Shown: positions 5,671-55,587 of the stretch, one piece after another
Numbering within the stretch: the first letter of the stretch is position 1
Layout: every line of letters begins with the position of its first letter
The notes under the pieces: generated by a model
Databases searched by the model: none
What the model saw: the letters and a program-made list of their open reading frames with translations, nothing else
Told to the model about the DNA's origin: nothing
Assembly (NCBI GenBank): GCA_037178675.1
Contig: JAYMGJ010000333.1
Location: 62,001 to 126,000 of the forward strand
Origin: Scleroderma bovista
Lineage: Eukaryota > Basidiomycota > Agaricomycetes > Boletales > Sclerodermataceae
Direction: 5' to 3'
Length of the DNA stretch: 64,000 nucleotides
Translations under genes and position numbers: made by a program

Positions 5671-6065
5671 TTGCACACAAAGAACTGTCTATTTAACCCA
5701 GGAGAAAGTCCCATTTATACCCACAGAAAGGCCAATTTAGCCCTGGAGAAAGTCCCATATGCACCCAAAGCAACACTCATATAACCCTGGAGAAGATCTC
5801 ATATTTACTCAATGAAAGGCCTATTTAGCCCTGGAGAAAGTCCCATTTACATCCAAAGAAAGGCCTGTTTAGCCTGGAGAAAGTCCCATATGCACTCAAA
5901 GTAAGGCCTATTTAGCCCTGGAGAAAGTCCCATATGCACCCAAAGTAAGACCTATTTAGCCCTGGAGAAAGTCCCATATGCACCCAAAGTAAGGCCTATT
6001 TAGCCTTGGAGAAAGTCCCATATGTACCCAAAGTAAGGCCCATTTAATCCTGGAGAAAGTCCAAT
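5670..6065 (+). repeat. 44-bp minisatellite, about 9 units
   Basis: Nine imperfect tandem units carry the phrase CCTGGAGAAAGTCCCATATG followed by CACCCAAAGTAAGGCCTATTTAG-like sequence with a period near 44 bp. The middle units (about 5875-6010) are nearly identical and the outer ones more diverged, as expected for unequal exchange. It begins inside the last exon-like block of the preceding gene remnant. No coding role is seen. Confidence 0.85.
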
Positions 6066-6310
6066 TTGGACCCCAGCCACCTGCTAAATAATTAATTAAA
6101 TATAATAATTATGGATAAATACATTTCTCCAATTGGGCTATGGAGAATCTCCAAGCATAGTGCTGGAGAATTATAATAGGGCTCTGGAGAATCCCCATGC
6201 ATGGTGCTGGAGAATGGAGAATCTCCATGGGCAGCTGGGAATTTCCAACCTGTCAGGACCTCATAGGTAGATACATCTGTAGAAATATACAAACCTAATA
6301 GGTCCTAAAT

Positions 6311-14860: not shown

Positions 14861-15430
14861 TGAGTATATGACTATTGTGTTGCATAGTGATATGTTCTAG
14901 ATGCTAGTTGAATATCCATATTACAATGTCATGTTACAAAGAGAGGTTGCATATACCATACTAGGCTGGAGGAATAATTCTGAATGCATAGATGTGCACC
15001 ATAACTCGCAACCATCATTTAATTGCTTTGGATGTGTGTTCCAGAGCCAGATACAATGTTCCAGTGGCTGGTGTAATGTTCCAGAGGCTGGTGTACTGTT
15101 CCAGGGACTGGTTGCATGTGCCAGGGACTGGTTACATATAGAAAGGTGGTGGTCTGCACAGGGAAGGTCTAGCCTAGACCACCATCATCTCGCCCTGGCA
15201 CCCCTAGACCAGCACCTACAGAAGCCTGGACACGGGATTATTGAGAGAAAACATGTTGAAGTCTCCTACCTTCTCCTTGTCCATCACAACAGTCTCCGCT
15301 GCTCAGCTTCCTCGCTGAACACTCCCTTTTGTCTCAACATCAGGACCCTGACCACCTAGTCCTTAGCAACACACTTCTGAACATTATGTTCACACCAGGA
15401 ATCACTGCACTGACAGCTGATGTGATCTGA
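14861..15430. other. unassigned sequence with short repeats
   Basis: No convincing gene. Near 15045-15135 a phrase like GTTCCAGNGGCTGGTGT recurs four to five times. The neighbouring 14640-14700 sequence (CACAATGGGGGACCTACCTGT) has a relative at 31550-31575, so part of this stretch belongs to a dispersed repeat. From about 15170 it probably forms the LINE 5' region. Confidence 0.4.
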
Positions 15431-16816
15431 TTGATAGCCATCATTATCGAGTTGCTCCCACAAGCATCTCCCTCTCCCCCAGCTGCTCCCCCCACAGATG
15501 TTACCCTCCAGTCCATACAGTCAGCCATCATGGACCAGATTCATCTCCTTGCCGACTGCACCAATGAACTCAGGACAATGATAGATACCAACAGGAACAT
15601 GGCAGAGTCTCTCACTCAAGTTGTAGACATCTCGAAGGAAGAGCTACAAGCAGCTGCCCAACTAGTCAGCGAAGCTGCTGATGCCATCACAGCCTCAGCC
15701 CCTGATCAAACCCAGTCACGACATCCTATGCCCCCCCCCACGGGTAAACTCATATGCTGAGATCGTCAGACAGACCTCCCACACCATAGCAGTAGCTCGT
15801 TGGGACTCACAAGCGAGAACTATATGCCTCACTCACCCATCAACATCTGACTCCGATGCCTCCCTTAACAGCCTCAGTGAAGATATCCTAGTAGAGAAAG
15901 CTAACTTCATGCTAGAGCTTGCCCAGAAGGAAAATGATGGGGCTCCTCCTCCACCAGAAGCCAAATTCCTCTCAGTTAGAAAGACTGCCCACAGAAGCCT
16001 AATGTACAAAGTTGACTCTGAAGAAACAGCCGCCTGGCTTAGGTCAACCAGAGGGCAGCAGACCTTCACTGCCAAGTTTGGCACTGAGGTGTCTCTAGCT
16101 TCCAAGCCTTTCTCCGTCATAATGGAATATGTCACAGTACGAGTGGCCGTCGATGACCCAAACACCCTCAGAGAAGTGGAGAGAGTGAATGACCTCCCAG
16201 TCAACACTGTATGATCCATCTGATGGATCAAGCCTCTTGAGAGGAGAGCCCCCAATCAACACACCGCCCATACAATCATTGACTTTTTCAGACCAGCAGA
16301 AGCCAACCTCACAATCAAAAACAGCCTCCTCATACTAGGAAAGAGATGTAGCTCATTAAAACTGTTGCCAGAACCAACAAGATGTATGAAATGCCAGTCT
16401 TTTGATGGCCACTATGCCAAGGACTGCAAGAGCCCACGGGACACATGTGGAACGTGCACTGGTGAACATAGCACCAAGGACTGCACAGTCACAACCTCAG
16501 ACAAGCATCACTGTGTGAACTGCAAGGCAGCTGGCCATGCAGCCTGGGGCTGTGAGTGCCTGACTTTTTTCAACCTTTCTAAGTGCTACCACTTGCACTT
16601 ACCAGACATTGCTTACAGATACTTCCCCAAAAGCGATGACCCAGCTACATGGATCTGGGAGAACAAAGCTGACCAGGTTTGGAATGAACCCCCATGCAAT
16701 GAAAATGGCCAAACCTACCTGCGGCCTCACCCTATGTTTGCAAATGAGGCAGATTGGAGAACAGTTGACCACCGTCACCACCCCCCACGCCCTCAACAGG
16801 TACCCCACCCCATCGC
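15431..16816 (+). pseudogene. LINE (non-LTR retrotransposon) ORF1 fragment
   Basis: A Gag-like ORF1 carrying three zinc knuckles in the 16380-16560 region: CMKCQSFDGHYAKDC, CGTCTGEHSTKDC and CVNCKAAGHAAWGC. This arrangement is typical of fungal Tad/LINE ORF1 proteins that bind element RNA. Upstream are a helical segment (15480-15740) and SYAEIVRQTSH. The frame changes at a C8 tract near 15730-15740, and two in-frame TGA codons sit at 16212-16223, so it is broken. The reading frame runs into repeat B at 16817. No ORF2 (endonuclease/RT) is present. Confidence 0.75.
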
Positions 16817-18586
16817 TGTGCACCTAAGTGAGGGAAGAGGTCAGAACAACCAACAACCAACACCAAATGACAGCAATATGCGAGTGGTGGTCTTCCTTTG
16901 TGTTTCTGGTATTTAATCTCCTCAGGGGAATGTGCTGCACACCTTCAGGCAGGATGCAGGAGGGAAGGGAAGAGCTTCTGATGGGGATAGAATGCGACTT
17001 GGGATGGTATTGACTCCTCTTCAGCCTACCACAGTGGTTAGGAAGAGTCCTGGGATAGAAGAGCGATGATAGAACAGCAACAGGGGTGTAACAGCAGTGA
17101 TGGGACAACAGGGAAGCAAGGGGACAGTTCCTGCTTCAAGAATGCGATGGACAGTGATGGGATGGAGTGGACAGAGATGCTAGACTGCGCTTCAGCCTAG
17201 AGAAATGATCAGATACAAGATATATCTGATAAACAGCAATATAGGAGCTTTAGGCCAGCACTGGGTGACCTACAAGTCCAAAGACAGAGATAGAGCTTAT
17301 AGACAGTGAGGGAGAGTGAATGTGGTCGCTTTATTGAGGGGGAAGCAGACACTTCCTTGCAGCCTTTGGCTGCTGGTTTATATACAGGAGGGGCTGTGGC
17401 CCTGTAAGCACAAATGACTAAGTGCTTGGTGAGAGATTGGTAAGAAATTGGTAAGTGATTGATAAGCAGTGTAATCAGGCTGAGTCATCGATGGGGAGAG
17501 CCTGGACAAGCTGCTGAGCCAAGGGAAAGAGCAAAAACATAGGTAAAAAGGGGTGCATAATCAAGAATATGGAAAAATCATTGCATGGGGCCCAAAAGAG
17601 AGGGGGGGAAAGCATGGGATGAGTAGATCGAAGCTAAATGAGCATATGAGATGACATAATGCATATGAATCATAGGGGCATGAGTCATGAATTGATAAGC
17701 AGCATGATAAGCATGATTTGAAGGATGATTGGTAAGTGATTGGTAAGGGGAGTAATGGGGATTAGTAATGCCAAGAGGGGATGAATAATGCGCAGCAGAT
17801 TGAGTCAGAGTGAGCCAGAGTGACTCTGTGTGACTCAGACAGAAGGGAAGCACAACCTGTGATTGATTGAACTTTAGATCTGGAGATGAGCTTCTGAAGC
17901 AGTGCCACTGATGGGAGTGGCTGGGGGATAATAAAAGAATTGATCCGACCAGAAGAGCAGTGTCAGGGGGCCTGGAATGACAAGTAGAGTCACAGCTGGT
18001 CACAGAGTGTCACAAATCCCTTGGATTGAGCTTCTGTAGAGCAAAAACGCGAAATTTGGTGCTCCCGAAGTGCAGTCTTCCCTTGAGCAGTAAGGGGAAG
18101 GTTCTGTACTCTATTAGGGCTCTTAAGAAGGGTTCTAGAGCACTGTTTCATTTGTGTTTGTTGCGGGATAGCAGGGAAGTGAAACGTGAATAGCGGATTT
18201 GACATGTCCAGGGAAGCAAGATGAATGATAGAGGGAGATGGATGTGACAGGACTCTGGGATGAAAGGACCATATTCAGAGGACTCAGGAGACACAGAGAC
18301 GACCAGGTATGAATTTTCAAGTCTAATGATAGACTTGAGACAACCAAAGTATGTGTGTGACGCAGGACTGATGAGGAGAATGCACTGACCAAGAATGAGA
18401 GGGACTGAGGGAGCAGGCTGGGAAGATATGTACCAGACAGTACACAGGAGCTCAGGGAGAGGCTGTCCCAAGAGCAGGACATAGTTGAGGTCTGCTGCAA
18501 TAGCAGAGAAATGTTCCAGAGAAAATGCGGACTCCATAGTGAGTGATGAAGCAGGTGTCTGGATTGTGGGTGGAATATCTCTGTGG
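16817..18586 (-). repeat. 2.34-kb LTR-like repeat, copy B (truncated, inverted)
   Basis: The reverse complement of copy A positions 13011 to 11242, without length change. It starts TGTGCACCTAAGTGAGGG, the complement of the U5 end, directly after LINE ORF1. It is truncated at 18586 (CTCTGTGG), losing about 570 bp of the U3 end, where a gypsy fragment begins. Contains the TATA and AATAAA signals on the minus strand. Confidence 0.85.
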
Positions 18587-21909: not shown

Positions 21910-22549
21910 TGTCAAGTCCGGGTCTACTCCAGTAGGGGGTCCGGTCAAGTCCGGACGAGTGTGGACCAAGGAAGAGGGCAGAGGGCTGGACGAGGGAGTA
22001 GTCCAGCCAGAGTTGGTGACCACTTGGATTCAACGACAAGGACGACGTGCGTTGATCCCTTGCGTAGGTTCCGGTCAAGGTGATAGAGACAGAGACAGAG
22101 ACAGAGACAGGCAGAGACTGGAGTAGTGACTAAGTTGATTTCAGACTGAGGAGTACAGGATAAACTACAGGGTACTTATACTAAGTAGAAACTAGGGTCG
22201 AGTACATACGGTGACAAGTAAACAACCTAATAGCGGACAAGGGATGACCGGAGTTAGGACTAGGTCAGGTCTGGTGAAAATAAAGTCAGGTCCATGTAAA
22301 ATAAATCAGGTCCGGTGAAAATGCTACAAGGTATAGGATATATCGAGTTCACGGAGAACTCACGTCAAGGCAGGGTAGACGGCGAGGTGTAGTAAGAGCG
22401 AATGGAGTATAGACCAAGGGTCGTAGTTAGCGGAAGGTTATCTGCGTGACCGTTGACTGGAGTAACTGAGAACGACCGGAGTTGAGCTGTAGGCCTGCGA
22501 TGTGACCGGAGTAACCGGATATGATCCGGAGTTGGACATGGTCGTAACA
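21910..22549 (-). repeat. gypsy-2 3' LTR
   Basis: 640 bp, TGTCAAGTCC...GTCGTAACA. It differs from the other LTR at about 20 positions, and every one I compared is a transition at a CpG (CG against TG or CA). ACTTC precedes it. Confidence 0.9.
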
Positions 22550-29145: not shown

Positions 29146-29785
29146 TGTCAAGTCCGGGTCTACTCCGGTAGGGGGTCCGGTCAAGTCCGGACGAGCGCGG
29201 ACCAAGGAAGAGGGCAGAGGGCTGGATGAGGGAGTAGTCTGGCCGGAGTTGGTGACCGCTTGGATTCAACGACAAGGACGACGTGCGTTGATCCCTTGTG
29301 TAGGTTCCGGTCAAGGTGATAGAGACGGAGACAGAGACGGAGACAGGCAGAGACTGGAGTAGTGACTAAGTTGATTTCAGACTGAGGAGTACAGGATAAA
29401 CTACAGGGTACTTATACTAAGTAGAAACTAGGGTCGAGTACATACGGTGACAAGTAAACAACCTAATAGTGGACAAGGGATGACCGGAGTTAGGACTAGG
29501 TCAGGTCCAGTGAAAATAAAGTCAGGTCTGTGTAAAATAAATCAGGTCTGGTGAAAATGCTACAAGGTATAGGATATATCGAGTTCACGGAGAACTCACG
29601 TCAAGGCAGGGTAGACGGCGAGGTGTAGTAAGAGCGAATGGAGTATAGACCAAGGGTCGTAGTTAGCGGAAGGTTATCTGCGCGACCGTTGACCGGAGTA
29701 ACTGAGAATGACCGGAGTTGAGCTGTAGGCCTGCAATGTGACCGGAGTAACCGGATATGATCCGGAGTTGGACATGGTTGTAACA
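29146..29785 (-). repeat. gypsy-2 5' LTR
   Basis: 640 bp, TGTCAAGTCCGGG...GGTTGTAACA, followed by the target duplication ACTTC at 29786. The inner edge, read on the minus strand as GTATTTCAGACTCGCAC, is the candidate primer-binding region shared with gypsy-1. Confidence 0.9.
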
Positions 29786-31855: not shown

Positions 31856-34800
31856 TCACTTACACATACAGTTGTTTATAATGATATCAACAGTGACCTG
31901 CATCAATGCATCATAGGTATTATTGCTATGTTCCTTAATGGCATGCTGAAGAGCATTGAGAACAGTGGCTTGGGTTCCAGAGGTTTGATATTCCTTCACA
32001 GCAAGATCAAGAATGTTGCTTGCATCTCCATTTTGCTGCAGAAGAAAGTAGGAGTATTCAAAAATGAGAATGCATCCTTTGAATGGTTTAGAGAGTACAT
32101 GTGAGAATGAAAGATTCCTCACCAGCTCCATGAATGATTGACTTGTGCATAGGGGAAACCATAAACAAAGGATGCATTAAGGGTAATGCACCAGATCTAA
32201 GATCAACATCAGAATCTTTCTGTTAAATCACAAAACACATCAGTCAAATTCTAATGAAAGAAATGGTGCCTCACAAACTGAGGGACAGACATATTGGTAT
32301 ATTAAAATGAATACATATAAATAATATACCAAATTCTGGAAGAACATCATAGGAAACATGAATAACTGACAAATTGAATGGCTTACATGCTAAGTGTTCA
32401 AAAGTTATGAAAGGTGCAAATAAATAAGTGTGGATGAGAACAAAAGAATGTGCTCACATCCTGAAGGCATTTGTGTAAGGTTCATCACACTATATTTGCA
32501 TCAGAGAGCTGTACTGATGGTGAACTTACTTGCTAATAACAGAAAAGATGTAAGTATGGCATGGAAATGTAATTAGAATTACATCAGGATCTAGAATAAA
32601 AATTACACACATTCTAGGAAGCCAACAGGACCAAAGTCAGGGAGAGCAGAGTGAGAAGGGACACAGCTGGACCTGGCATGAAATCACTCACTGCCTGTCA
32701 AGCCAACAGCACCAGAGTGGGAGTGAGGTCAGTGAGAAGGGACCCAGCTGGACCTGGCATGAAATCACTCACCAACTGTCAAGCCAACAGCACCAGAGTG
32801 GGAGTGAGGTCAGTGAGAAGGGACCCAGCTGGACCTGGCATGAAATCACTCACTCGCTGTCAAGCCAACAACACCAGAGTGGGAGTGAGGTCAGTGAGAA
32901 GGGACCCAGCTGGACCTGGCATGAAATCACTCACTGCCTGTCAAGCCAACAGCACCAGAGTGGGAGTGAGGTCAGTGAGAAGGGACCCAGCTGGACCTGG
33001 CATGAAATCACTCACATCCTGTCAAGCCAACAGCACCAGAGTGGGAGTGAGGTCAGTGAGAAGGGACCCAGCTGGACCTGGCATGAAATCACTCACATAC
33101 TGTCAAGCCAACAGCACCAGAGTGGGAGTGAGGTCAGTGAGAAGGGACACAGCTGGACCTGGCATGAAATCACTCACATACTGTCAAGCCAACAGCACCA
33201 GAGTGGGAGTGAGGTCAGTGAGAAGGGACCCAGCTGGACCTGGCATGAAATCACTCACTGCCTGTCAAGCCAACAGCACCAGAGTGGGAGTGAGGTCAGT
33301 GAGAAGGGACCCAGCTGGACCTGGCATGAAATCACTCACTTCCTGTCAAGCCAACAGCACCAGAGTGGGAGTGAGGTCAGTGAGAAGGGACCCAGCTGGA
33401 CCTGGCATGAAATCACTCACTACCTGTCAAGCCAACAGCACCAGAGTGGGAGTGAGGTCAGTGAGAAGGGACCCAGCTGGACCTGGCATGAAATCACTCA
33501 CTCCCTGTCAAGCCAACAGCACCAGAGTGGGAGTGAGGTCAGTGAGAAGGGACCCAGCTGGACCTGGCATGAAATCACTCACTCCTGTCAAGCCAACAGC
33601 ACCAGAGTGGGAGTGAGGTCAGTGAGAAGGGACCCAGCTGGACCTGGCATGAAATCACTCACTCCTGTCAAGCCAACAGCACCAGAGTGGGAGTGAGGTC
33701 AGTGAGAAGGGACCCAGCTGGACCTGGCATGAAATCACTCACTACCTGTCAAGCCAACAGCACCAGAGTGGGAGTGAGGTCAGTGAGAAGGGACCCAGCT
33801 GGACCTGGCATGAAATCACTCACTTCCTGTCAAGCCAACAGCACCAGAGTGGGAGTGAGGTCAGTGAGAAGGGACCCAGCTGGACCTGGCATGAAATCAC
33901 TCACATACTGTCAAGCCAACAGCACCAGAGTGGGAGTGAGGTCAGTGAGAAGGGACCCAGCTGGACCTGGCATGAAATCACTCACCAACTGTCAAGCCAA
34001 CAGCACCAGAGTGGGAGTGAGGTCAGTGAGAAGGGACCCAGCTGGACCTGGCATGAAATCACTCACTCCCTGTCAAGCCAACAGCACCAGAGTGGGAGTG
34101 AGGTCAGTGAGAAGGGACCCAGCTGGACCTGGCATGAAATCACTCACTTGCTGTCAAGCCAACAGCACCAGAGTGGGAGTGAGGTCAGTGAGAAGGGACC
34201 CAGCTGGACCTGGCATGAAATCACTCACTGCCTGTCAAGCCAACAGCACCAGAGTGGGAGTGAGGTCAGTGAGAAGGGACCCAGCTGGACCTGGCATGAA
34301 ATCACTCACATACTGTCAAGCCAACAGCACCAGAGTGGGAGTGAGGTCAGTGAGAAGGGACCCAGCTGGACCTGGCATGAAATCACTCACCCACTGTCAA
34401 GCCAACAGCACCAGAGTGGGAGTGAGGTCAGTGAGAAGGGACCCAGCTGGACCTGGCATGAAATCACTCACATACTGTCAAGCCAACAGCACCAGAGTGG
34501 GAGTGAGGTCAGTGAGAAGGGACCCAGCTGGACCTGGCATGAAATCACTCACTGCCTGTCAAGCCAACAGCACCAGAGTGGGAGTGAGGTCAGTGAGAAG
34601 GGACCCAGCTGGACCTGGCATGAAATCACTCACTGCCTGTCAAGCCAACAGCACCAGAGTGGGAGTGAGGTCAGTGAGAAGGGACCCAGCTGGACCTGGC
34701 ATGAAATCACTCACTCCCTGTCAAGCCAACAGCACCAGAGTGGGAGTGAGGTCAGTGAGAAGGGACCCAGCTGGACCTGGCATGAAATCACTCACTCCCT

Positions 34801-36544
34801 GTCAAGCCAACAGCACCAGAGTGGGAGTGAGGTCAGTGAGAAGGGACCCAGCTGGACCTGGCATGAAATCACTCACTTGCTGTCAAGCCAACAGCACCAG
34901 AGTGGGAGTGAGGTCAGTGAGAAGGGACCCAGCTGGACCTGGCATGAAATCACTCACTGCCTGTCAAGCCAACAGCACCAGAGTGGGAGTGAGGTCAGTG
35001 AGAAGGGACCCAGCTCGACCTGGCACAACATCACTCACATACTAGCATCATGCCAACCCAGCAATAATCATAGTTAGAGCTCATTCATTACTTTGATGAA
35101 TTTGGAAACCTAATCACCTATTGCAACAATTTTATCATATCAAACACAAGGTAAACATTTCCCCAACCTTAGATGGCATCCAGCTCATTATGCACATTTC
35201 CAAGCCTATCTTGTCAAATTTGTTGTTCACCACAAAGTATTTCAGTCCTCTGCCCAGTAGCTGAGTGTCAGCACCAGATCATATCCCAATGTCACTCTCC
35301 TACCTTTTAACTGAGTATTCAATGTTCAGAACAATGTTAGCTTGCTGGGTTGAAACCACCAGCTTTTGCAGTTCCACCTCATTAAGAGCCTCTATTGTGC
35401 ATCTTAGGAGTGAACTACAATCTGCATCCTCTTGGTTCATTCCTACATTTGTATGTCCACATTAGCATCACCATAACATTAATTCAATCCATAACTCACT
35501 GGCCACTGACAAATAGGCCTTTGGGGGATACTTGCGGCCACTCAACTGGCTCTCAATTTTTGCCCTCAGTGTGCTTAACATTTTTGCTTCAAACTCTCCA
35601 ACCCTTGGCTTTACTTCTTTCATTGGTAAACCACTTTCTCGCATGAGTTGATTGAGAGCAGGCACCCTTAAAGTGTCAGCCTTTGTCAACACAGCAATTA
35701 CAGGCACTCCCCAACAATCATATCAGAATCATAATGATACCACTCAGAATGAAGTACCTTACCATTTCCTGTATTGCATTCATCGAAGAACTTCTCTTCT
35801 GCAGCCAAAATTGGCCTCTCGTAATCAGCCATTGAGATGCAAAACCTAGGTCACCATCAAATTTATATGATATATCCCTCAACTGTAGTTGTGATCTTAC
35901 CAGATGGCATGGATACGCCTTTCCAACTTCAATGTGCGTGCTCGATCAGTGACAAAGTCTTTCATCAGGTTCAGCTCCTTCACAGAGCCAGTCTCGAATC
36001 CTCGTGAGTCATGAAATATAAAACCTGGGTTGCTCCGAAAAATCAGTTCATCTTCAATGTTATGATACCCCCTCTGAATAGAGTTAGTCTAGTTCATGTC
36101 ACCGAACAAGCTCTCGTCGTAGGCTGACTCGCCTCCAATGACCCCTGCACGATCGCAAGATCAATCTGCGAAATGCCATGCATCAGTTAGTCGAAGGGAC
36201 ATATGATACGGTAGCATGAGGTACTTGACCTTTTCGCCTTTGGCATTGAAGATCTCCGGGAGCTCTGTTGTGTTGCAAACACGCTGCAAGAGCGTCGTTT
36301 TACCTGCATTTGACCTGCCGAGGACGAGGATTCTGAAGTAACCAATGCGATCGAAGTGCTTTTTGACTTCCGCAGGATCCATCCTGACAGTGTCTACCGC
36401 CATATCATTGAATAACGTACAAACAGTCATGGTGACTAGACCTGGAAGTTACTACTCACTCGCTTCGTCGGAACCTGCAGCACGCTGCCCAGATTTCCTG
36501 AATGGTAGAGCCGACCGAAACTTGCTCAAGAGTCCAGAAGCCAT
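31856..36544 (-). CDS. P-loop GTPase-like gene with a single-codon microexon array
   Basis: Proposed exons on the minus strand: 36544-36460 (MASGLLSKFRSALPF...), 36393-36225 (Walker A/G1 LVLGRSNAGKTTLLQ), a junction I could not fix, ~36073-35901 (G3 FHDSRGFE), 35845-35763, 35706-35500 (G4 AVLTKADT, possible G5 YLSVA), 35442-35304, 35249-35168 and 35109-35092. Ordinary introns are 50-66 nt and keep phase. After exon 35109-35092 (VSKFIK, phase 0) come 30 slots of 3 nt (two of 2 nt) at 35041-32692, then six tiny exons. Larger exons follow (32219-32123; terminal ~32025-31856, ending ...NNCMCK then TGA). About 440 residues are predicted. The upper part strongly resembles fungal G-domain proteins; the microexon part is inferred from splice sites and phase and needs RNA evidence. 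Confidence 0.7.
32275..32613 (-). other. six further tiny exons downstream of the array
   Basis: In mostly unique sequence, minus-strand AG/NNN/GT sites give AAT (32613-32611, donor GTGTGT), CAA (32532-32530, GTAAGT), GAT (32460-32458, GTGAGC), CAT (32389-32387, GTAAGC), AATTTG (32335-32330, GTATAT) and TTT (32277-32275, GTGAGG). The introns between them are 78, 69, 68, 51 and 52 nt, and the one leading to the next exon (32219) is 55 nt. All are GT-AG and phase 0. Joined, they read NQDHNLF and continue in frame into KDSDVDLRSGALPLMH. Four strong AG-3 nt-GTRAG sites in ~260 nt are far more than chance would give. Confidence 0.65.
32614..35041 (-). repeat. 81-bp tandem array: 78-nt intron-like unit plus variable 3-nt slot
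   Basis: On the minus strand each unit is donor GTGAGTGATTTCATGCC ... TGTTGGCTTGACAG acceptor (78 nt) followed by 3 variable nt. Slots start at plus positions 32692, 32773, 32854 and so on every 81 bp. Slots 12-13 (33583-33584, 33663-33664) have only 2 nt, shifting later positions by 2; the last is 35039-35041. Across about 29 units I saw only a few substitutions in the 78 nt (for example GGGACACAGC in two units, AACAACACC in one, and changes in the outermost unit). The slot takes ten different trinucleotides. A branch-site-like CTGAC lies ~35 nt before the acceptor. The unit next to 32614 is degenerate but still 78 nt. Confidence 0.9.
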
Positions 36545-45685: not shown

Positions 45686-48028
45686 TGTCACGCACCAAAC
45701 GTGTTTGGTACTGTGGACATGGAGAAAGTTAGCCGATGAAACTAATGCAAAGAACGCACACCCAAGATCTGTTGAAAGATTGTCCCGACTTGAGGGATAC
45801 AGACAGCCCTCGCTATCCATATCACGCAAAGTCATGACTATCCTTATGTGAAGGATGAATACAAGCTTGTCATAGCCATCTATCGCACAAGAATGACTAT
45901 CCTGGAGCAAGAGATGAATGCCATCATCTGGCAGTCATCCCTCGCACAAGAACCGCCAAGAAGCAGAAGAATCCAAGGATTGGTGATCATTTCAGTATGA
46001 GAGAGGAATGCAACCTACTGCAGTCCAACTCCCATACCAGAACAACCAAAGAAGCAGAAGAAACGAAGGAGAAACGAAGGAGAAAAGGAAGAATCATTTT
46101 TAGCACCCAAATGTCAAATTTAGGCGCCCAGTGCCGGCATTCCGATATTTTGAATAGCTCCACCATTTTTGAAGCTATCAATCATGCGACTATACCATCA
46201 TGGAGCCTAGACCATGGTCTATCTGCCTGTCAAGTTCCGACGTAAATCCGTTCATTTCCCACGGAGATATTCCACCCGCAATCCAGACACCCACTTCATC
46301 ACTCACTATGGAGTCCACATTTTCTCTGGAATGTTTCTCCGCTATTGCAGCAGACCTCAACTATGTCCTGCTCTTGGGACAGCCTCTCCCTGAGCTCCTG
46401 TGTACTGTCTGGTACATATCTTCCCAGCCTTCTCCCTCAGTCCCTCTCATTCTCGGTCAGCGCGTTCTCCTTGTCAGTCCTGTGTCGCGCACATACTTTG
46501 GTCGTCTCAAGTCTATCGTTAGACTTGAAAATTCATACCTGGTCGTCTCTGTGTCTCCTGAGTCCTCTGCATATGGTCCTTTCATCCCAGAGTCCTGTCA
46601 CATCCATCTCCCTCTATCATTCATCTCGCTTCCCTGGACACGTCGAATCCGCTACTTGCGATTCTCTTCCCTGCTATCCCGCAACAAACACAAATGAAAC
46701 AGTGCTCTAGAACCCTTCTTAGGAGCCCTAATAGAGTACAGAACCTTCCCCTTACTGCTCAAGGGAAGACTGCACTTCGGGAGCACCAAATTTCGCGTTT
46801 TTGCTCTACAGAAGCTCAATCCAAGGGATTTGTGACACTCTGTGACCAGCTGTGACTCTACTTGTCATTCCAGGCCCCCTGACACTGCTCTTCTGGTCGG
46901 ATCAATTCTTTTATTATCCCCCAGCCACTCCCATCAGTGGCACTGCTTCAGAAGCTCATCTCCAGATCTAAAGTTCAATAAATCATAGGTTGTGCTTCCC
47001 TTCTTTCTGAGTCACACAGAGTCACTCTGGCTCACTCTGACTCACTCTGCTGCACATTATTCATCCCCTCTTGGCGTTACTAATCCCCATTACTCCCCTT
47101 ACCAATCACTTACCAATCATCCTTCAAATCATGCTTATCATGCTGCTTATCAATTCATGACTCATGCCCCTATGATTCATATGCATTATGTCATCGCATA
47201 TGCTCATTTAGCTTCGATCTACTCATCCCATGCTTTCCCCCCCTCTCTTTTGGGCCCCATGCAATGATCTTTCCATATTCTTGGTTATACACCCCTTTTT
47301 ACCTATGTTTTTGCTCTTTCCCTTGGCTCAGCAGCTTGTTCAGGCTCTCCCCATCGATGACTCAGCCTGATTACACTGCTTATCAATCGCTTACCAATTT
47401 CTTACCAATCTCTTACCAAGCACTTAGTCATTTGTGCTTACAGGGCCACAGCCCCTCCTGTATATAAAGCAGCAGCCAAAGGCTGCAAGGAAGTGTCTGC
47501 TTCCCCCTCAATAAAGCGACCACATTCACTCTCCCTCTCTGTCTATAAGCTCTATCTCTGTCTTTGGACTTGTAGGTCACCCAGTGCTGGCCTAAAGCTC
47601 CTATATTGCTGTTTATCAGATATATCTTGTATCTGATCATTTCTCTAGGCTCAAGTGCAGTCTAGCATCACTGTCCACTCTATCTCATCACTGTCCATCG
47701 CATTCTTGAAGCAGGAACTGTCCCCTTGCTTCCCTGTTGCTCCATCACTGCTATTACCCCCCTATCATCAATCTATCATCACTCTTCAATCCCAGGACTC
47801 TTCCTAACCACTGTGGTAGGCTGAAGAGGAGTCAATACCATCCCCAGTCGCATCTATTCCCCATCAGAAGCCCTTCCCTTCCCTCCTGCATCCTGCCTGA
47901 AGGCGTGCAGCACATCCCCCTGAGGAGATTAAATACCAGAAACGCAAAGGAAGACCACCACTCGCATATTGCTGTCATTTGGTGTTGGTTGTTGGTTGTT
48001 CTGACCTCTTCCCTCACTTAGGCGCACA
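45686..48028 (+). repeat. 2343-bp LTR-like repeat, copy D
   Basis: TGTCACGCACC...CACTTAGGCGCACA. It begins with a palindrome ACCAAAC-GT-GTTTGGT. Directly inside (48031) follows TGGAGCCCACCGCGAGG, which begins with TGG and is a candidate tRNA primer-binding site. This supports D being a true 5' LTR of the gag-pro element. Confidence 0.85.
47461..47515 (+). promoter_or_regulatory. TATA box and polyadenylation signal of copy D
   Basis: TATATAAA at 47461-47468 and AATAAA at 47510-47515 lie 42 nt apart, with the GCAGCC-AAA-GGCTGC hairpin between. This order (TATA then AATAAA) places the LTR R region here, so transcription would run rightward into gag. The same arrangement is present in A, B and E. 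Confidence 0.6.
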
Positions 48029-48261
48029 TCTGGAGCCCACCGCGAGGGGTGGTAGTTTCTGGATTTGATATCCCGCTTTCATCAATTCTGTCAACATCCT
48101 CATCTCCGTTGACCTCTCCATCTCCCACAACTCTATCTACCCCATCTACACTGTCCTATTGGACTCCTACATCGACTCATAACACTCCACAACTTGCTCT
48201 ACCTCCTACATCGACAACACTTTCCTCCTCTACCCCTATCGCTATCAACATATCATCACCC

Positions 48262-51200
48262 ATGGCTACTGTCACACCCTCTGTGCTTACTCTACCAATC
48301 ATTGGGACTAAGTCAGCCCCAGAGAAGTTCACTGGAGAGCACTCTTATGTCAAGCCCTTCATTACCCACTATGAACGCCTTTGCGCTCTTCATCATGTCA
48401 CCACTGACACTGAGAAGGTGCAATCTATCCTTCAATACTGTTCCATCCATGTACAAGAGATCATCCAAGGCATGCCACACTACCATACTCCCAACTGGGA
48501 TGCCTTCAAGAAGGATCTCTTGAAGCACTTTGATGCTGATTTCTCCGATCAGCGCTTCCAAGAGACAGATCTCAAGCGATTTGTCCTTGAATCCTTGGAC
48601 ACTCCAATCAACTCCCTTCATGACTTCAGAGCATACAACAGAGACTTCATTCGCATTGGAGGATGGCTGATGAATAAAGGAAAGATATCAGAAGGAGACT
48701 ATAATTGCTATTTCTGGATTGGACTACCCCGCTCATTCCGATCTGATGTGGATGCTCGTCTTCTTCTCAAGGATCCCAAGCTGGATGTTTCTGTACCCTA
48801 TCCCTATGCAGATGTCTGCAAGGTAGCAGAAGAACTCCTCCGCCGCGACAGGTTTGACCTGGAAGAAAAGGAGTTTCTTGGAATGAAGTCACCCTTGGAA
48901 CCTTGGAAAAATGCCTCTATCTCTGATCACCGTGACCCCAGAGATGATCCCATTCGTCCACTACTCTCTTCTCCCGATGCCAGGGCCAATCTCAGAGCTT
49001 TGGATCAGGAGAGAGTAATCGCAAAGGAGAAAGATGATGTTGAGACACTTGTTCACAAGCTGTCCCACATGACCCTCTCTGATCCAAACTATGCCATCTA
49101 CTACTTCCGTGCCATAAAGCTTGACCCTGATATCAGCAAAGTCTTCCCTCGTCCTGTCATTCCTACTAAAGCCCCTACTCCCGCACCAACTACTGTGACC
49201 ACTCCTACTCATCCCACTCGTCCTCCTGTTCGTCCTCCCATCACCTGCTATGGATGTGGTGTGGAGGGACATGGTCTCAACAGATGTGAAGTCATCAATG
49301 ATCTTGTATCAAAAGGATCACTTGCCAGAGATGAAACACGCAGAATTACTCTCCCAAATGGTCAAAGACTTCTCAGGAATGGAGAAGAGACTATGCTGCA
49401 AGCATATGAGCGTCATGCTGCTGCTGCTAGAGCTGCTAACAATGTGCGCTTCATTACCCATGATGAAGAAGACCTTCAAGCCAGAATCTATGAGCTTGAA
49501 GAAGAAGAACCTCACATTGCCACTGTCGATCGTGTTCCTAAAGTTACCAAGGAGAAAAGGAAAGCTGCATTTGAAGGTGTCATGATCCCTCCTTATGGAA
49601 AAGGCAAGGGAAAGGAGAATAAAGCCCCTGCTGCCACTCCCATACCCCTGCCAAAGCCAATCCCCACATCTATTCCTGTGCCAGTGCCCATCGAGGTTCA
49701 TCCCTATGTCTTTGATGGTGCAAATGATGATGCTATCATGCAAGATGATACTCTTCCTGTCAAATCTTCGAACCCTGTTGTTGAGTCTACTGAGAAGAAG
49801 AAGACTAGGCCTCCTGCTGCCATGTCCTCCTCCCTCTCTCAGAACACCAGCATTAAGGGTCTTGTGGATCGCATCTTGGCTACTCCTCTCACCATGTCTG
49901 TTGGAGAAGCTATTGGATCATCAAAGGAAATCTCCCAATACTTCCAGGACATTATCAAGACTAAGAGACAAGCCATTCCCTATGTCAGGACAGTTGAAGG
50001 AATCCCCCCTGCTGCTTCCTACATTTGTCTCACTACCAGTCCTCTCATCACCATCAATCTTCTCTGCAATAAGATTCCAGTCAAGGCAGTCATCGACTCA
50101 GGATCTACTCTTAATGTTGTCAAGGCCAGCATCGCTAAATCTGTCATCAAGATGCCCATTGATACCTCCCAGACTTTGCGCATGAGAGATGCTAATGGTG
50201 GTCTCTCTCAGCTCACTGGTCTTATCGAGAATGTTCCTTTATTCTGTGGTGCTGCCCAGACCTGGACCAATCTCTATGTCTCTCCTGACAATGACTCTGG
50301 ATTTGATCTTCTACTTGGTCGTCCCTGGGCCCATGGAAATGCTGTCAGCATTGTTGAGAAAGACTCTGGTACATATATTGTCTTTGGAGCCAACACTGAT
50401 CATCCCTTGGAGATGTGTGCAATGGATGCGCACTCTGCCAATCATTCTGGAACTGGACTATTGGCTATGCATGAGCCAGATGGAAAGGCTGAAGAAGAAA
50501 AGGCATCCTCTGTCTCACCTCATTCATCACCTCCTGGTTTGCCAGCTTGCAATGCTTCACCTCCCTCATCAGTTCTTGGCCCACTGTCATCACATCCTAT
50601 TGCATCTTCAATCAATTCTCCGCCTGTGCCTGCCAGCACTTCTTCCAACAATCCACAACCAACTCTAGATGAAGCTCTTCAGGTTGTTGCTGAGCATATT
50701 CATGCTGTTGGAGATAGTGTCATGGAACCACTTCACCCTGCCATTGCTTTTCTCTGTGCTCAGATTCGTGAAGAAGAGCGACGCTCTATGCTTAGCCTTC
50801 TGATCCTTCTGAATGCACAATTTGACAACTCTGACACTGAAGATCCTGCCAATCAAGCACAAGACTCCTCTATTCCAGCCAGCGATGAAGAACCCCCTCC
50901 TTATCCCAACCCCTCTTCATCTGTGAATTTTGCATCTATGGTGCCTATGATTCCCAATCTCCAAGTCTCTCCTCCAAGTCCTACTCTTCTGTCACCTCCT
51001 CAATTGCTGGCTCACAATGCTGAATCTCCCCCATTCATCCCCAATCCACCATCACCACCACCTATTCCTTCTGAAGCTGCTGTCACTTCCCCCAATCCTA
51101 GTCCCACCCCAGATGAAGTCCTTCAAAGCATTATTGAAGAGATTGAATTTTCTGGTGGTACTTCTGCAGCTGTTGAAGAGCACCCTGTCATTGCCCGCAT

Positions 51201-51891
51201 TTGTGCCAGAATCCATGAGCAAGAACATCTCCCCATTGATGATCGATCAATGTTATCTGTTTGTCAAATTGTGGATCTTTCAGGCCCTTGTCTTGAGAGC
51301 TGCTATGCTCTTCCTTCTCAAGATGGTGTTGATACATTGGGAAATTGTTATCAGGACTATCTCATTCTGCATACTTCCTTGGCCGTCTCCAAAGATGAAA
51401 CTACCGACACCCACTCTGGTTGTGTCACTCAGATTGGAACTGCCTTTACCCGATTTTACCCCCTCTCAACTCCCGCTGCTATGACTCCTGATCCAGCTGA
51501 TGAGATCAGTGATGATCCTGATTCTCCTCTGTTGTCCTTCACACCCATTCCATTCTGGAAGTCAAATGCAAATGTCAACTGCTCATTTGCTTCTGACTCT
51601 GCTATTCCCACTCCTCCTCCTACTCCCATGTCCTCTGTGGACGATGAAGAACAGACTACTCCTTCATCACTCCCTCCATCCTTAGAATCTCCCGATCCCC
51701 CTGTCTCTGGTCTTCAGCTACTTGCATCAGCTGTTACCCATGCTACTCAAGACCCTTATCCTGCCCCGTTCAAGACTATCACCTGTATCAGTGGTGAACC
51801 CTTGTCCCCTGAAGCTACATCCTTTCAGACACTCCCTTCTGGTATTGATCCAGAGCGGGATCTATCCTTTCTTGAAGATTTGTTTCTTTGA
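48262..51891 (+). CDS. gag: Gag-protease polyprotein of the inverted-LTR retroelement
   Basis: The first ATG in the long frame is 48262 (MATVTPSVLTLPIIG), giving ~1209 residues; the frame is open upstream to the LTR. The capsid region (~residues 20-230) has EKFTGEHSYVKPFITHYERL and WDAFKKDLLKHFDADF. A zinc knuckle CYGCGVEGHGLNRC lies near residue 330. The aspartic protease has AVIDSGSTLNVV near residue 610. The long Ser/Pro-rich linker contains two related segments (LDEALQVVAEHIHAVG...HPAIAFLCAQIREEE and PDEVLQSIIEEIEFSG...HPVIARICARIHEQE). It ends at a TGA near the RT frame, which is +1 relative to it. No internal stops. Confidence 0.85.
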   Translation: MATVTPSVLTLPIIGTKSAPEKFTGEHSYVKPFITHYERLCALHHVTTDTEKVQSILQYCSIHVQEIIQGMPHYHTPNWDAFKKDLLKHFDADFSDQRFQETDLKRFVLESLDTPINSLHDFRAYNRDFIRIGGWLMNKGKISEGDYNCYFWIGLPRSFRSDVDARLLLKDPKLDVSVPYPYADVCKVAEELLRRDRFDLEEKEFLGMKSPLEPWKNASISDHRDPRDDPIRPLLSSPDARANLRALDQERVIAKEKDDVETLVHKLSHMTLSDPNYAIYYFRAIKLDPDISKVFPRPVIPTKAPTPAPTTVTTPTHPTRPPVRPPITCYGCGVEGHGLNRCEVINDLVSKGSLARDETRRITLPNGQRLLRNGEETMLQAYERHAAAARAANNVRFITHDEEDLQARIYELEEEEPHIATVDRVPKVTKEKRKAAFEGVMIPPYGKGKGKENKAPAATPIPLPKPIPTSIPVPVPIEVHPYVFDGANDDAIMQDDTLPVKSSNPVVESTEKKKTRPPAAMSSSLSQNTSIKGLVDRILATPLTMSVGEAIGSSKEISQYFQDIIKTKRQAIPYVRTVEGIPPAASYICLTTSPLITINLLCNKIPVKAVIDSGSTLNVVKASIAKSVIKMPIDTSQTLRMRDANGGLSQLTGLIENVPLFCGAAQTWTNLYVSPDNDSGFDLLLGRPWAHGNAVSIVEKDSGTYIVFGANTDHPLEMCAMDAHSANHSGTGLLAMHEPDGKAEEEKASSVSPHSSPPGLPACNASPPSSVLGPLSSHPIASSINSPPVPASTSSNNPQPTLDEALQVVAEHIHAVGDSVMEPLHPAIAFLCAQIREEERRSMLSLLILLNAQFDNSDTEDPANQAQDSSIPASDEEPPPYPNPSSSVNFASMVPMIPNLQVSPPSPTLLSPPQLLAHNAESPPFIPNPPSPPPIPSEAAVTSPNPSPTPDEVLQSIIEEIEFSGGTSAAVEEHPVIARICARIHEQEHLPIDDRSMLSVCQIVDLSGPCLESCYALPSQDGVDTLGNCYQDYLILHTSLAVSKDETTDTHSGCVTQIGTAFTRFYPLSTPAAMTPDPADEISDDPDSPLLSFTPIPFWKSNANVNCSFASDSAIPTPPPTPMSSVDDEEQTTPSSLPPSLESPDPPVSGLQLLASAVTHATQDPYPAPFKTITCISGEPLSPEATSFQTLPSGIDPERDLSFLEDLFL

Positions 51892-53244
51892 TCAAGAAGA
51901 TCTGCATTCAGTTCCACAAATGTTTCCTTTGTCTATGCCCAGCCTTCTTGGCTATTCCTGTACTTCTATTGCTGCATTGTTTACTCACTTGGACCGAGAA
52001 GTCGTAAAACTCCTATCTCCCCAGATTTTGTCTACTAGTACAATGCCTGTACTACCATCTATGCTGACTGATACTTCTCCGCTTTTGTCTACTGATGTCC
52101 TCTATGTACAGAATTTGCCCCTTTCCTCTCCATTGAATCTCCCAACCTTGCCCTATCCCATTCCAGCCCGAGATGACTCAAATATACCCCAGCTCTACTA
52201 CTCTCTTGAAGATTTTTGTTACATGTTACACTTTAAACATGTATTCTATGTAAATTCTGAGGACTCTGATGATGAACTAGGCCAATGGTGCCTTGGTGCT
52301 TACAAATGTGTGGATCGGAAAGTCAAACCGGTTCCCAGTCGCTATCCAGAAGACGCCCATGTTCATCGTCAATTCCCCAAAAATCCCCTCGACTCACTCA
52401 CACCACTCACTCCCCTGCCACCCGACTTCATTCCCACGAAGAAGCTTACCAAGGAGCGCCTGGCTTTAATGAAACTAAACCCTGATGGTTTCCTCTGGCC
52501 AGAAGAAGAAAAACTTTTTGCACATGTCATGAAGCTTAATGAAGTGGCGCTAGCGTTCGACGAATCAGAACGCGGCAATTTTCACTCAGACTACTTCTCC
52601 CCTTACATCATCCCAGTCCTGCCCCATGAACCATGGGAGTACCGCAACATACCCATCCCTCCTGGCATTCGTGAACGTGTTATCCAGCTGCTCAGAGACA
52701 AGATCACAGCCGGACTCTATGAACCTGCGCAATCATCATATCGCTCCAAGTGGTTCTGTGTTATGAAGAAGAATGGAAAGATCCGGATTGTCCATGATCT
52801 GCAACCTCTCAATAAGGTTACAATCAGAGATGCCAGAGTTCCACCCATTTTGGATGACTTTGTTGAGCCATTCGCCGGTCGGCAATGTTACACCGTCTTT
52901 GATCTCTTTTCTGGATTTGATGCCCGCCAACTGCATCCAGATAGCCGAGATCTCACCTCATTCATGACTCCCCTCGGTCTCTTACGGCATACCGCCATGC
53001 CACAAGGCTACACCAATTCGCCTTCCGAATTCCAAAACTGTACTAGTTTCATCTTACAAGATGAGATCCCCCATACTGCCAACGTATTCATCGACGATCT
53101 TCCCATCAAAGGCCCTGCAACACGCTATGACGACGCCAATGGCAATGCCGAAACCCTGCCAGCCAACCCAGGGATTCGTCGCTTCATTTGGGAACATGCT
53201 GTAGATGTGCACCGGATTATGCATCGCTTTGCGCATGCAGGCGG
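51890..53244 (+). pseudogene. pol: reverse transcriptase, truncated at the inverted repeat
   Basis: This frame overlaps the end of gag-pro (open from 51722) and has no required ATG, so a frameshift near 51880 is likely. It has a tether region, then RT: SSYRSKWFCVMKKNGKIRIV, HDLQPLNKVTIRD, VFDLFSGFDARQLH, TAMPQGYTNSPSEFQN and the catalytic VFIDDLPIKGP. It stops at MHRFAHAGG in the palm/thumb region, exactly where copy E begins. Translation would continue 33 codons into E before a stop. Not a functional polymerase. Confidence 0.85.
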
Positions 53245-55587
53245 TGTGTGCCTAAGTGAGGGAAGAGGTCAGAACAACCAACAACCAACACCAAATGACA
53301 GCAATATGCGAGTGGTGGTCTTCCTTTGCATTTCTGGTATTTAATCTCCTCAGGGGGATGTGCTGCACGCCTTCAGGCAGGATGCAGGAGGGAAGGGAAG
53401 GGCTTCTGATGGGGATGGAATGCGACTGGGGATGGTATTGACTCCTCTTCAGCCTACCACAGTGGTTAGGAAGAGTCCTGGGATAGAAAAGCGATGATAG
53501 ATTGATGACAGGGGTGTAACAGCAGTGATGGAGCAGAGGGGAAGCAAGGGGACAGTTCCTGCTTCAAGAATGCGATGGACAGTGATGGGATAGAGTGGAC
53601 AGAGATGCTAGACTGCGCTTGAGCCTAGAGAAATGATCAGATACAAGATATATCTGATAAACAGCAATATAGGAGCTTTAGGCCAGCACTGGGTGACCTA
53701 CAAGTCCAAAGACAGAGATAGAGCTTATAGACAGTGAGGGAGAGTGAATGTGGTCGCTTTATTGAGGGGGAAGCAGACACTTCCTTGCAGCCTTTGGCTG
53801 CTGCTTTATATACAGGAGGGGCTGTGGCCCTGTAAGCACAAATGACTAAGTGCTTGGTAAGAGATTGGTAAGAAATTGGTAAGCGATTGATAAGCAGTGT
53901 AATCAGGCTGAGTCATCGATGGGGAGAGCCTGAACAAGCTGCTGAGCCAAGGGAAAGAGCAAAAACATAGGTAAAAAGGGGTGTATAACCAAGAATATGG
54001 AAAGATCATTGCATGGGGCCCAAAAGAGAGGGGGGGAAAGCATGGGATGAGTAGATCGAAGCTAAATGAGCATATGCGATGACATAATGCATATGAATCA
54101 TAGGGGCATGAGTCATGAATTGATAAGCAGCATGATAAGCATGATTTGAAGGATGATTGGTAAGTGATTGGTAAGGGGAGTAATGGGGATTAGTAACGCC
54201 AAGAGGGGATGAATAATGTGCAGCAGAGTGAGTCAAAGTGAGCCAGAGTGACTCTGTGTGACTCAGAAAGAAGGGAAGCACAACCTATGATTTATTGAAC
54301 TTTAGATCTGGAGATGAGCTTCTGAAGCAGTGCCACTGATGGGAGTGGCTGGGGGATAATAAAAGAATTGATCCGACCAGAAGAGCAGTGTCAGGGGGCC
54401 TGGAATGACAAGTAGAGTCACAGCTGGTCACAGAGTGTCACAAATCCCTTGGATTGAGCTTCTGTAGAGCAAAAACGCGAAATTTGGTGCTCCCGAAGTG
54501 CAGTCTTCCCTTGAGCAGTAAGGGGAAGGTTCTGTACTCTATTAGGGCTCCTAAGAAGGGTTCTAGAGCACTGTTTCATTCGTGTTTGTTGCGGGATAGC
54601 AGGGAAGAGAATCGCAAGTAGCAGATTTGACATGTCCAGGGAAGCGAGATGAATGATAGAGGGAGATGGATGTGACAGGACTCTGGGATGAAAGGACCAT
54701 ATGCAGAGGACTCAGGAGACACAGAGACGACCAGGTATGAATTTTCAAGTCTAACGATAGACTTGAGACGACCAAAGTATGTGCGCGACGCAGGACTGAC
54801 AAGGAGAATGCGCTGACCGAGAACAAGAGGGACTGAGGGAGCAGGCTGGGAAGATATGTACCAGACAGTAAACAGGAGCTCAGGGAGAGGCTGTCCCAAG
54901 AGCAGGACATAATTGAGGTCTGCTGCAATAGCGGAGAAACGTTCCAGAGAAAATGCGGACTCCATAGTGAGTGATGAAGTGGGTGTCTAGATTGCGGGTG
55001 GAATATCTCCGTGGGAAATGAACAGATTTACGTCGGAACTTGACAGGCAGATAGACCATGGTCTAGGCTCCATGAAGGTATAGTCACATGATTGATAGCT
55101 TCAAAAATGGCGGAGCTATTCAAAATATCGGAATGCCGGCACTGGGCACCTAAATTTGACATTTGGGCGCTAAAAATGATTCTTCCTTTTCTCCTTTGTT
55201 TCTCTATCGTTTCTTCTGCTTCTTTGGTTGTTCTGGTATGGGAGTTGGACTGCAGTAGGTTGCATTCCTCTCTCATACTGAAATGATCATCAATCCTTGG
55301 ATTCTTCTGCTTCTTGGCGGTTCTTGTGCGAGGGATGACTGCCAGACAATGGCATTCATCTCTTGCTCCAGGATAGTCATTCTTGTGCGATAGATGGCTA
55401 CAACGAGGTTGTATTCATTCTTCGCATAAGGATAGTCTTGACTTTGTGTGATATGGATAGCGAGGGCTGTCTGTATCCCTCAAGTCGGGGCAATCTTTCA
55501 ACAGATCTTGGGTGTGCGTTCTTCGCATTAGTTTCATCGGCTAACTTTCTCCATGTCCACAGTACCAAACACGTTTGGTGCGTGACA
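53245..55587 (-). repeat. 2343-bp LTR-like repeat, copy E (inverted)
   Basis: TGTGTGCCTAAGTGAGGG (complement of the U5 end) to ...GGTGCGTGACA. Same length as D. Two inner ORFs (91 and 67 residues) are identical with D, while a 121-residue one differs at five positions, so the pair is similar but not identical. Confidence 0.85.

Follow-up and report, generated by a model that had tools for sequence, protein, structure and literature searches.

Can a tandem array of near-identical units encode part of a protein one codon at a time? This question is raised by an 81-nucleotide (nt) repeat in a 64,000-nt stretch of Scleroderma bovista DNA (assembly GCA_037178675.1, contig JAYMGJ010000333.1, positions 62,001 to 126,000 of the forward strand; the whole stretch is called the window here). 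A first-pass annotation had described the repeat as 30 slots (28 of 3 nt and two of the sequence GA) on the minus strand, and both the repeat and the order of the slots were confirmed. It had also proposed that each unit is one intron plus one single-codon exon of a minus-strand gene, which was supported here by slot length, the locus pair L034/L028, a conserved tail, codon choice and the public protein P0008. As judged from sequence, the array is very probably a run of one-codon exons in a GTPase gene.

The window gene and its array

The genome containing the window gene comprises 51.8 Mb in 850 contigs. The gene was modelled on the minus strand of the window, where eight ordinary exons are followed by the slot array, by tail microexons and by two ordinary C-terminal exons with the stop at 31856. 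In transcript order, the features are:

36460..36544, minus strand: exon 1, start codon at 36544 (model; frame open into exon 2)
36230..36393, minus strand: exon 2, G domain with P-loop GRSNAGKTT (model; Pfam MMR_HSR1)
36133..36165, minus strand: exon 3, followed by the GC donor GAG/GCGAGT at 36132-36127 (model; resembles the GSLE segment of relatives, by eye)
35901..36073, minus strand: exon 4, G domain (model and genome protein search)
35763..35845, minus strand: exon 5, G domain (model)
35500..35706, minus strand: exon 6, G domain (model and genome protein search)
35304..35442, minus strand: exon 7, end of the G domain (model and genome protein search)
35168..35249, minus strand: exon 8, ending SWMPSK in phase 0, the final ordinary exon 5′ of the array (model; aligned in 12 loci)
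32692..35041, minus strand: array of 30 slot exons (28 one-codon, two of 2 nt) with 78-nt introns
33663..33664, minus strand: 2-nt slot GA, frame broken if both GA slots are included
33583..33584, minus strand: 2-nt slot GA, with the same effect on the frame
32614..32691, minus strand: final 78-nt intron of the array, diverged (13 differences)
32611..32613, minus strand: tail one-codon exon AAT (N) (this and the next five: model and family tail comparison)
32530..32532, minus strand: tail one-codon exon CAA (Q), conserved
32458..32460, minus strand: tail one-codon exon GAT (D), conserved
32387..32389, minus strand: tail one-codon exon CAT (H)
32330..32335, minus strand: tail 6-nt exon AATTTG (NL)
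32275..32277, minus strand: tail one-codon exon TTT (F)
32123..32219, minus strand: ordinary C-terminal exon, KDSDVDL...HGAG (model; similar L027 stretch, by eye)
31856..32076, minus strand: last exon to the stop codon, CILIFEYSYFLLQ...NCMCK (model; similar stretches in L027, by eye, and P0149)

The GTPase-like gene that had been noticed upstream on the same strand was borne out, with G-domain exons within 36393-35304. All Pfam matches of the window model and of the public proteins P0008 and P0034 were to P-loop GTPase families, MMR_HSR1 (PF01926) being the best in two of the three (28.4 bits for P0008, 22.1 for P0034 and 21.6 for the whole window model; curated cut-off 21.9), and no Pfam match to NACHT or ANK was obtained at E ≤ 0.1 in these three sequences. 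Exon 8 was shown in the model to lead into the array through a 126-nt intron in phase 0. The first-pass annotation had also entered the array in phase 0, through a further exon at 35109-35092; the phase was retained, from exon 35249-35168, and the further exon was rejected in favour of it, as only 4 of the 12 loci aligned (by eye; window copy included) have a GT where this exon would need its donor, and L018 lacks the stretch. With both 2-nt slots omitted, the window model forms one frame of 462 residues.

Slot starts are spaced by 81 nt from 35041 down to 32694, and by 80 nt after each 2-nt slot. The near identity of the 78-nt introns, claimed before, was confirmed: 26 of the 30 are the same 78-mer, two others are one base off each (positions 29 and 64), the first shows 4 differences and the last 13. 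Tandem Repeats Finder reported a period of 81, 29.5 copies and 97% matches for the array. The extent given earlier was correct for the array itself but ended the microexons too soon, since the N, Q, D, H, NL and F exons follow the repeat, with AAT adjoining the last diverged intron copy. The intron after AAT showed a slight likeness to the array intron (score reached by 3 of 200 shuffles), and the introns after CAA, GAT, CAT, AATTTG and TTT showed no likeness beyond shuffles (score reached by 51 to 185 of 200 for these and the last intron). Introns are 78 nt long in live arrays and 46–126 nt elsewhere in the genes modelled.

Probable one-codon exons across the gene family

A search of the same genome with the G-domain protein gave 154 matches, read as about 48 related loci, some of which are likely haplotype copies. 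Among the 31 of these loci fetched for array analysis, 30 contain an array of one-codon exons downstream of the GTPase exons and on the same strand. Besides, two distant GTPases, L032 and L033 (41% and 34% identity), showed no array, with 1 and 2 spurious exons, respectively. In L041 (C708:40200-44700), about 2 kb of unrelated sequence, apparently an insertion, lies between the GTPase exons and the array.

Slot length was compared genome-wide at equal stringency (at most 3 mismatches; lengths of 0 and 2–6 nt). The motif with a 3-nt slot gave 1,215 matches, and slots of 0, 2, 4, 5, and 6 nt gave 0, 9, 5, 4, and 0; the reversed-pattern controls gave 0 for 3 nt and 0, 0, 1, 0, and 0 for the other lengths. 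A separate pattern count in this genome found 1,079 copies compared to 0 for the reversed pattern, and thus, from both counts, the array pattern is not due to chance. When introns were anchored independently in the 23 family loci fetched first, 652 of 681 slots were of 3 nt, and triplets made up 1,139 of the 1,238 chain exons in 30 parsed loci, some spurious stretches in the L018 and L026 chains being counted in. A free splice-site chain treating slots of 1–12 nt equally over 20 whole loci (826 of 1,723 exons of 3 nt) was not relied on; its controls gave 442 of 1,417 exons of 7 nt on the opposite strand and 411 of 1,661 exons of 3 nt on reversed sequence, and it was dropped because repeat structure survives reversal, the intron anchors and pattern counts being used instead. 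In a comparison with introner elements, the motif copies fetched (first pattern places listed) were all found within one gene family. At C127:129628-129733, two array-type motifs were seen with no GTPase exon among the matches listed there.

The slots keep their length where the introns have diverged. In L027, 79 of 80 exons are of 3 nt and one of 6 nt, separated by introns of 50–85 nt whose median pairwise identity is 73%; the codons spell FEQEQPQNQKEQILQRLRELHELDDDQEILDDLVEFIEKRQEHL... and include no stop, GT and AG being imposed by the parser, and by eye the slot peptide resembles a coiled coil. Upstream of the G domain, L027 (40-335) also shows near-repeated N-terminal exons by eye, comparable to the repeated N-terminal segments of P0001. 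For L034 and L028, 28 exons could be aligned one to one after one extra leading L028 exon was dropped, and the slots were 92% identical (80 of 87 nt) compared to 70.5% for the intron interiors (994 of 1409, plus 255 gap positions; Fisher p 3e-6). L019 and L018 share 17 slots with 51 of 51 nt identical and introns identical at 1040 of 1089 positions; after these paired slots, L018 (C127:105700-115500) loses the remainder of the array relative to L019 (C298:41000-50500).

The tail CAA GAT x (6 nt), i.e., Q-D-x-(6 nt), was found in all 24 loci compared, a set without L014, L016, L018, L026, L035, L037, and L041. Codon choice in the slots was also distinctive: a third-base C occurred in 1 of 1,139 slot triplets compared to 70 of 322 codons in the GTPase exons of the window gene, and the NAG:NAA ratio was 13:321 in the slots and 30:29 in those exons. 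Avoidance of third-base C and NAG might suit codons wedged between AG and GT splice sites; we infer CpG loss and cryptic acceptors as its cause.

Two full-length searches of public proteins (best 120 of 188 and best 120 of 329) showed relatives in Scleroderma, Pisolithus, Astraeus, Rhizopogon, Suillus, and Boletus among the matches listed, where the best named matches to the window gene were from S. yunnanense (71% over 70%) and S. citrinum (82% over 57%). Many of the best 120 of 188 proteins stop at or before the exon preceding the array. P0008 (453 amino acids (aa), from a 2,346-nt contig with the source label 'lgn') has a G domain that is uninterrupted where the family loci studied here have introns. 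The G domain is followed by DWMPYLQ, by 78 residues among which Lys, Glu, Ser, Leu, and Trp are frequent, and then by VSDFMAGPAGC...LPLWSCCLDR, a translated array intron in frame 0 and then frame 1 of the C60-type consensus (by eye). The frame-0 match scored 61 compared to at most 36 for 200 shuffled queries against 182 proteins. Read from its sequence, P0008 contains a slot-like peptide followed by one retained array intron. P0153, a P. microcarpus genome model, apparently reads through two array-intron copies (score 54). Extra middle segments in P0034, P0041, P0066, P0069, and P0142 are known from the proteins alone and were not assigned as one-codon exons, and a search with the array and C-terminus only gave no match at E ≤ 0.01 among 109 candidates. 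The Suillus-like proteins P0112 and P0110 (source jgi), seen as proteins only, have low-complexity middles, e.g., VLDDLDYLYDLDLDVYLDDVRYEV, which hint at one-codon exons beyond Sclerodermatineae.

Identical introns, unrelated codons and competing explanations

Two states were distinguished among the arrays: near-identical introns with codons that are unrelated between close copies, or diverged introns, with conserved codons in one pair of the latter (L034/L028). The first state is most pronounced in L036, where 27 of 28 introns of 78 nt are identical and the slots hold nine codon types. Nucleotide diversity, calculated from units with 78-nt introns only, was 0.0009 for the introns and 0.668 for the slots of L036, a ratio of 703, followed by L025 (86), L021 (51), and the remaining 12 measured arrays (2 to 18). 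L037 on C298 is the counterpart of L036 on C127, these copies being either alleles or recent duplicates, and the same intron was found in 26 of 32 L037 copies. Identity in the 5′ flanks is 96.5% across 4.0 kb and 98.4% across 1.9 kb farther from the array; in the 3′ flank it is 96.4% across 576 bases, which are all that could be aligned of the 2.1 kb compared. The slot orders of L036 and L037 were no closer than shuffles (p 0.24), and no slot order common to arrays was seen beyond shuffles at p < 0.05 in any of 8 pairs.

The majority intron of L036 and L037 was also found in L040 and L041, two loci with genes 93% identical to the one on C127. Besides, L017 and L025 have equal consensus introns in genes that are 80% identical, and the consensus introns of L027 and L036 agree at all but 1 of 78 sites in genes that are 83% identical. 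The sharing of introns between loci together with the divergence of the slots shows that the introns are homogenised or constrained while the slots diversify. Intron variation was not raised near the slot (463 live units), and identity between adjacent slots was not above shuffles in any of 14 arrays. A weak link between the slot and the following intron variant (p < 0.05) was found in 4 of 15 arrays (L013, L020, L021, and L031).

Several observations weigh against a run of one-codon exons. L014 contains no array and just two candidate slots. Slots of 2 or 4 nt were also seen in L021, L036, L037, L038, and L039; copies with such frame-breaking slots may in part be dead. In the window model, inclusion of both GA slots shifts the frame to a stop, so that the frame claimed earlier holds with these slots skipped, and this copy therefore either skips them or is damaged. 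TGA slots were found once each in L022 and L023 (2 of 652 slots). For L035/L026, the slots are less conserved (114 of 159, 72%) than the introns (1887 of 2337, 81%), and of the slot changes 27 are non-synonymous and 2 synonymous, and thus some arrays evolve fast. Three consensus introns folded no better than shuffles (z-scores 0.99, 0.44, and -0.72). No transcripts of this gene or species were found among the matches listed. P0008, whose source label we take to stand for assembled sequencing runs, was only 72–81% identical, exon by exon, to the nearest locus C206 in a comparison made without the DNA of its own gene. Finally, in 8 of the 23 arrays compared, antisense frames remain open across 80% or more of the array, up to 1,898 aa in L013.

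The open antisense frames would be expected if the plus strand encoded a protein of 27-residue repeats, each with a single variable residue, and the splice signals on the minus strand were coincidental. The window plus strand is indeed open at 33687-35045 (452 aa), and stop triplets do not tell the strands apart: among the 1,139 triplets, TAA, TAG, and TGA occurred 0, 0, and 4 times compared to 3, 2, and 1 for TTA, CTA, and TCA, where two of the four TGA are parser shifts by flanking letters and the triplets include spurious L018 and L026 exons. However, an open 81-nt unit repeats automatically. In the diverged-intron arrays L027, L028, and L034, the longest antisense frame covers 9–14% of the array, and the slots are still triplets. 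Read in antisense, the slots would almost never start with G, so that Ala, Val, Asp, Glu, and Gly would be barred without explanation; in the sense direction this is a third-base rule. In the 30 array-bearing loci, the chain follows the GTPase exons and runs on the same strand as they do. On the diverged-array frames and the slot base rule, the plus-strand protein was rejected as the principal explanation, and we regard it as very improbable. A non-coding minisatellite within one long intron, with the flanking exons joined directly and the slots meaningless, is slightly less improbable but still hardly to be expected. Exon 8 and the C-terminal exon are both in phase 0 and in frame without the array, and several public genome models of Pisolithus microcarpus go from the WFPY exon straight to the C-terminus. 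Such a minisatellite does not fit with the 3-nt slots found genome-wide and in L027 with its diverged introns, with the L034/L028 slots being more conserved than the introns, with the near absence of stops, or with the slot-like peptide and retained array intron of P0008.

If the array is a run of one-codon exons, the G domain and the C-terminal segment would come from ordinary exons and a variable peptide between them would be added one residue per exon, each codon being bounded by the AG acceptor of one short intron and the donor, mostly of GTGAG type, of the next. Short introns are normally recognised by intron definition. The array introns would be removed in this way, probably in order, and ordered removal would attach each codon to the upstream exon as it lengthens, before the following donor is used, so that the problem of a 3-nt exon would disappear. 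As all 3-nt slots are in phase 0, skipping, gain, loss, and reordering of units would keep the frame. Units may be gained, lost, and reordered through unequal recombination inside the introns, which would make the array a frame-safe device for altering a protein segment residue by residue. More speculatively, and by analogy with Tuber NACHT-ANK proteins, the variable segment could give each member of the GTPase family a distinct interaction surface, perhaps for nonself recognition.

The codon diversity beside identical introns would result from strong diversifying selection combined with rapid intron homogenisation, or from mutation directed at the slot. In the latter case, the one-codon exons would be genuine and a mutational process targeting the exon junction, not selection of ordinary mutations, would put new codons into the slots; we consider this rather unlikely. 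It would agree with the up to 703-fold excess of slot over intron diversity within L036, with the C127/C298 copies having the same intron and slot orders no more alike than shuffles between 96–98% identical flanks, and with the lack of elevated intron variation beside the slot. No slot-rewriting machinery or template was found, no search having been made for either; the few slot types per array and the repeated blocks in L011, L013, L020, and L041 fit with duplication of a few founder units, and selection with homogenisation could act instead. A related proposal, equally doubtful in our judgement, is that an identical mobile or self-homogenising intron holds single codons which a dedicated process rewrites or reshuffles between generations, thereby diversifying receptors. 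If true, sister nuclei would carry different receptors, and the array would be a DNA-level diversity generator of one-residue resolution that keeps the frame.

Other features of the window include two elements with very long inverted repeats at 11500-18328 and 46773-54500 (1,520 nt, 100%, and 1,256 nt, 98%); both repeats touch an edge of the searched region and may be longer. Both elements carry CTTACCAATC-type short repeats, and the element at 46773-54500 encloses open reading frames of 1,280 and 540 aa. Similar 20- to 21-bp repeats, GTCAGGTC..GTGAAAATAAA, are found at 22264-22322 and 29500-29558, about 7.2 kb apart in the same orientation, and a tandem repeat with a 44-bp unit (8.8 copies, 83% matches) lies at 5689-6073.

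Known systems and meaning

The first-pass annotation knew of no described system like this. Such a system was in fact described before: in the available parts of the sources, the NACHT-ANK (nank) family of Tuber melanosporum is reported to contain tens of 3-bp microexons with alternative splicing, which are credited to Iotti et al. 2012 and discussed as receptor diversification (PMC4986451, PMC3689799, PMC10197012). As far as these excerpts go, both systems are expanded families of an ectomycorrhizal fungus with codon-sized microexons, and tens of 3-bp exons per gene are also found here (28 in the window array and 79 in L027). The Tuber proteins are ascomycete NACHT-ANK proteins, whereas those studied here are Boletales GTPases; the system is one that works like Tuber nank yet outside that gene family. 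Compared to nank, taken from its partial description only, the present arrays add near-identical introns, up to 79 one-codon exons per locus, and unrelated codons between close copies.

Other systems are more distant. The micro-exon genes (MEGs) of Schistosoma mansoni are built mainly from very short exons, the lengths of which are in most cases divisible by three, and automatic annotation has difficulty with them; the exons are given as 3–81 bp in the abstract or as 6–81 bp, mostly 15 bp, in the text, with introns of 0.1–5 kb (PMC10526429, excerpts). They encode secreted proteins and have long introns, with no mention of 78-nt repeat introns in these excerpts, whereas the introns here are short. 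In the part of PMC4986451 concerned, the WD, ANK, and TPR repeats of Podospora NLRs are highly conserved with few hypervariable positions, shuffling, and concerted evolution. The conserved repeat is coding in those fungal NLRs as excerpted, whereas here it is the intron and the 3-nt exon varies. The exons of SNHG14, a gene with tandem introns, are not known to be single codons. This host gene of SNORD115 and SNORD116 contains 29 consecutive and 48 tandem introns (PMC11608373, excerpt), and its products, the snoRNAs, lie within the introns.

Among the matches listed (titles and abstract starts, open-licence PMC literature), no account of arrays of this kind was seen for the present family of GTPases. 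What is new here is the gene family, the lineage, the scale, and the hypervariability at the DNA level, the principle being already known from truffle NACHT-ANK. The array looks like a device for diversifying a protein. For splicing research, it would offer a natural extreme, with 79 consecutive 3-nt exons in one locus, and for evolution research a clean contrast of identical introns and codons changed beyond recognition between flanks that are 96–98% identical. If the reading as one-codon exons is true, codon-sized exons arose also in the GTPases of a distant fungal lineage, with more than 1,000 such exons in one genome. As annotation tends to end before the arrays or to skip them, a variable, possibly recognition-related part of the proteome would therefore be missing from the databases.

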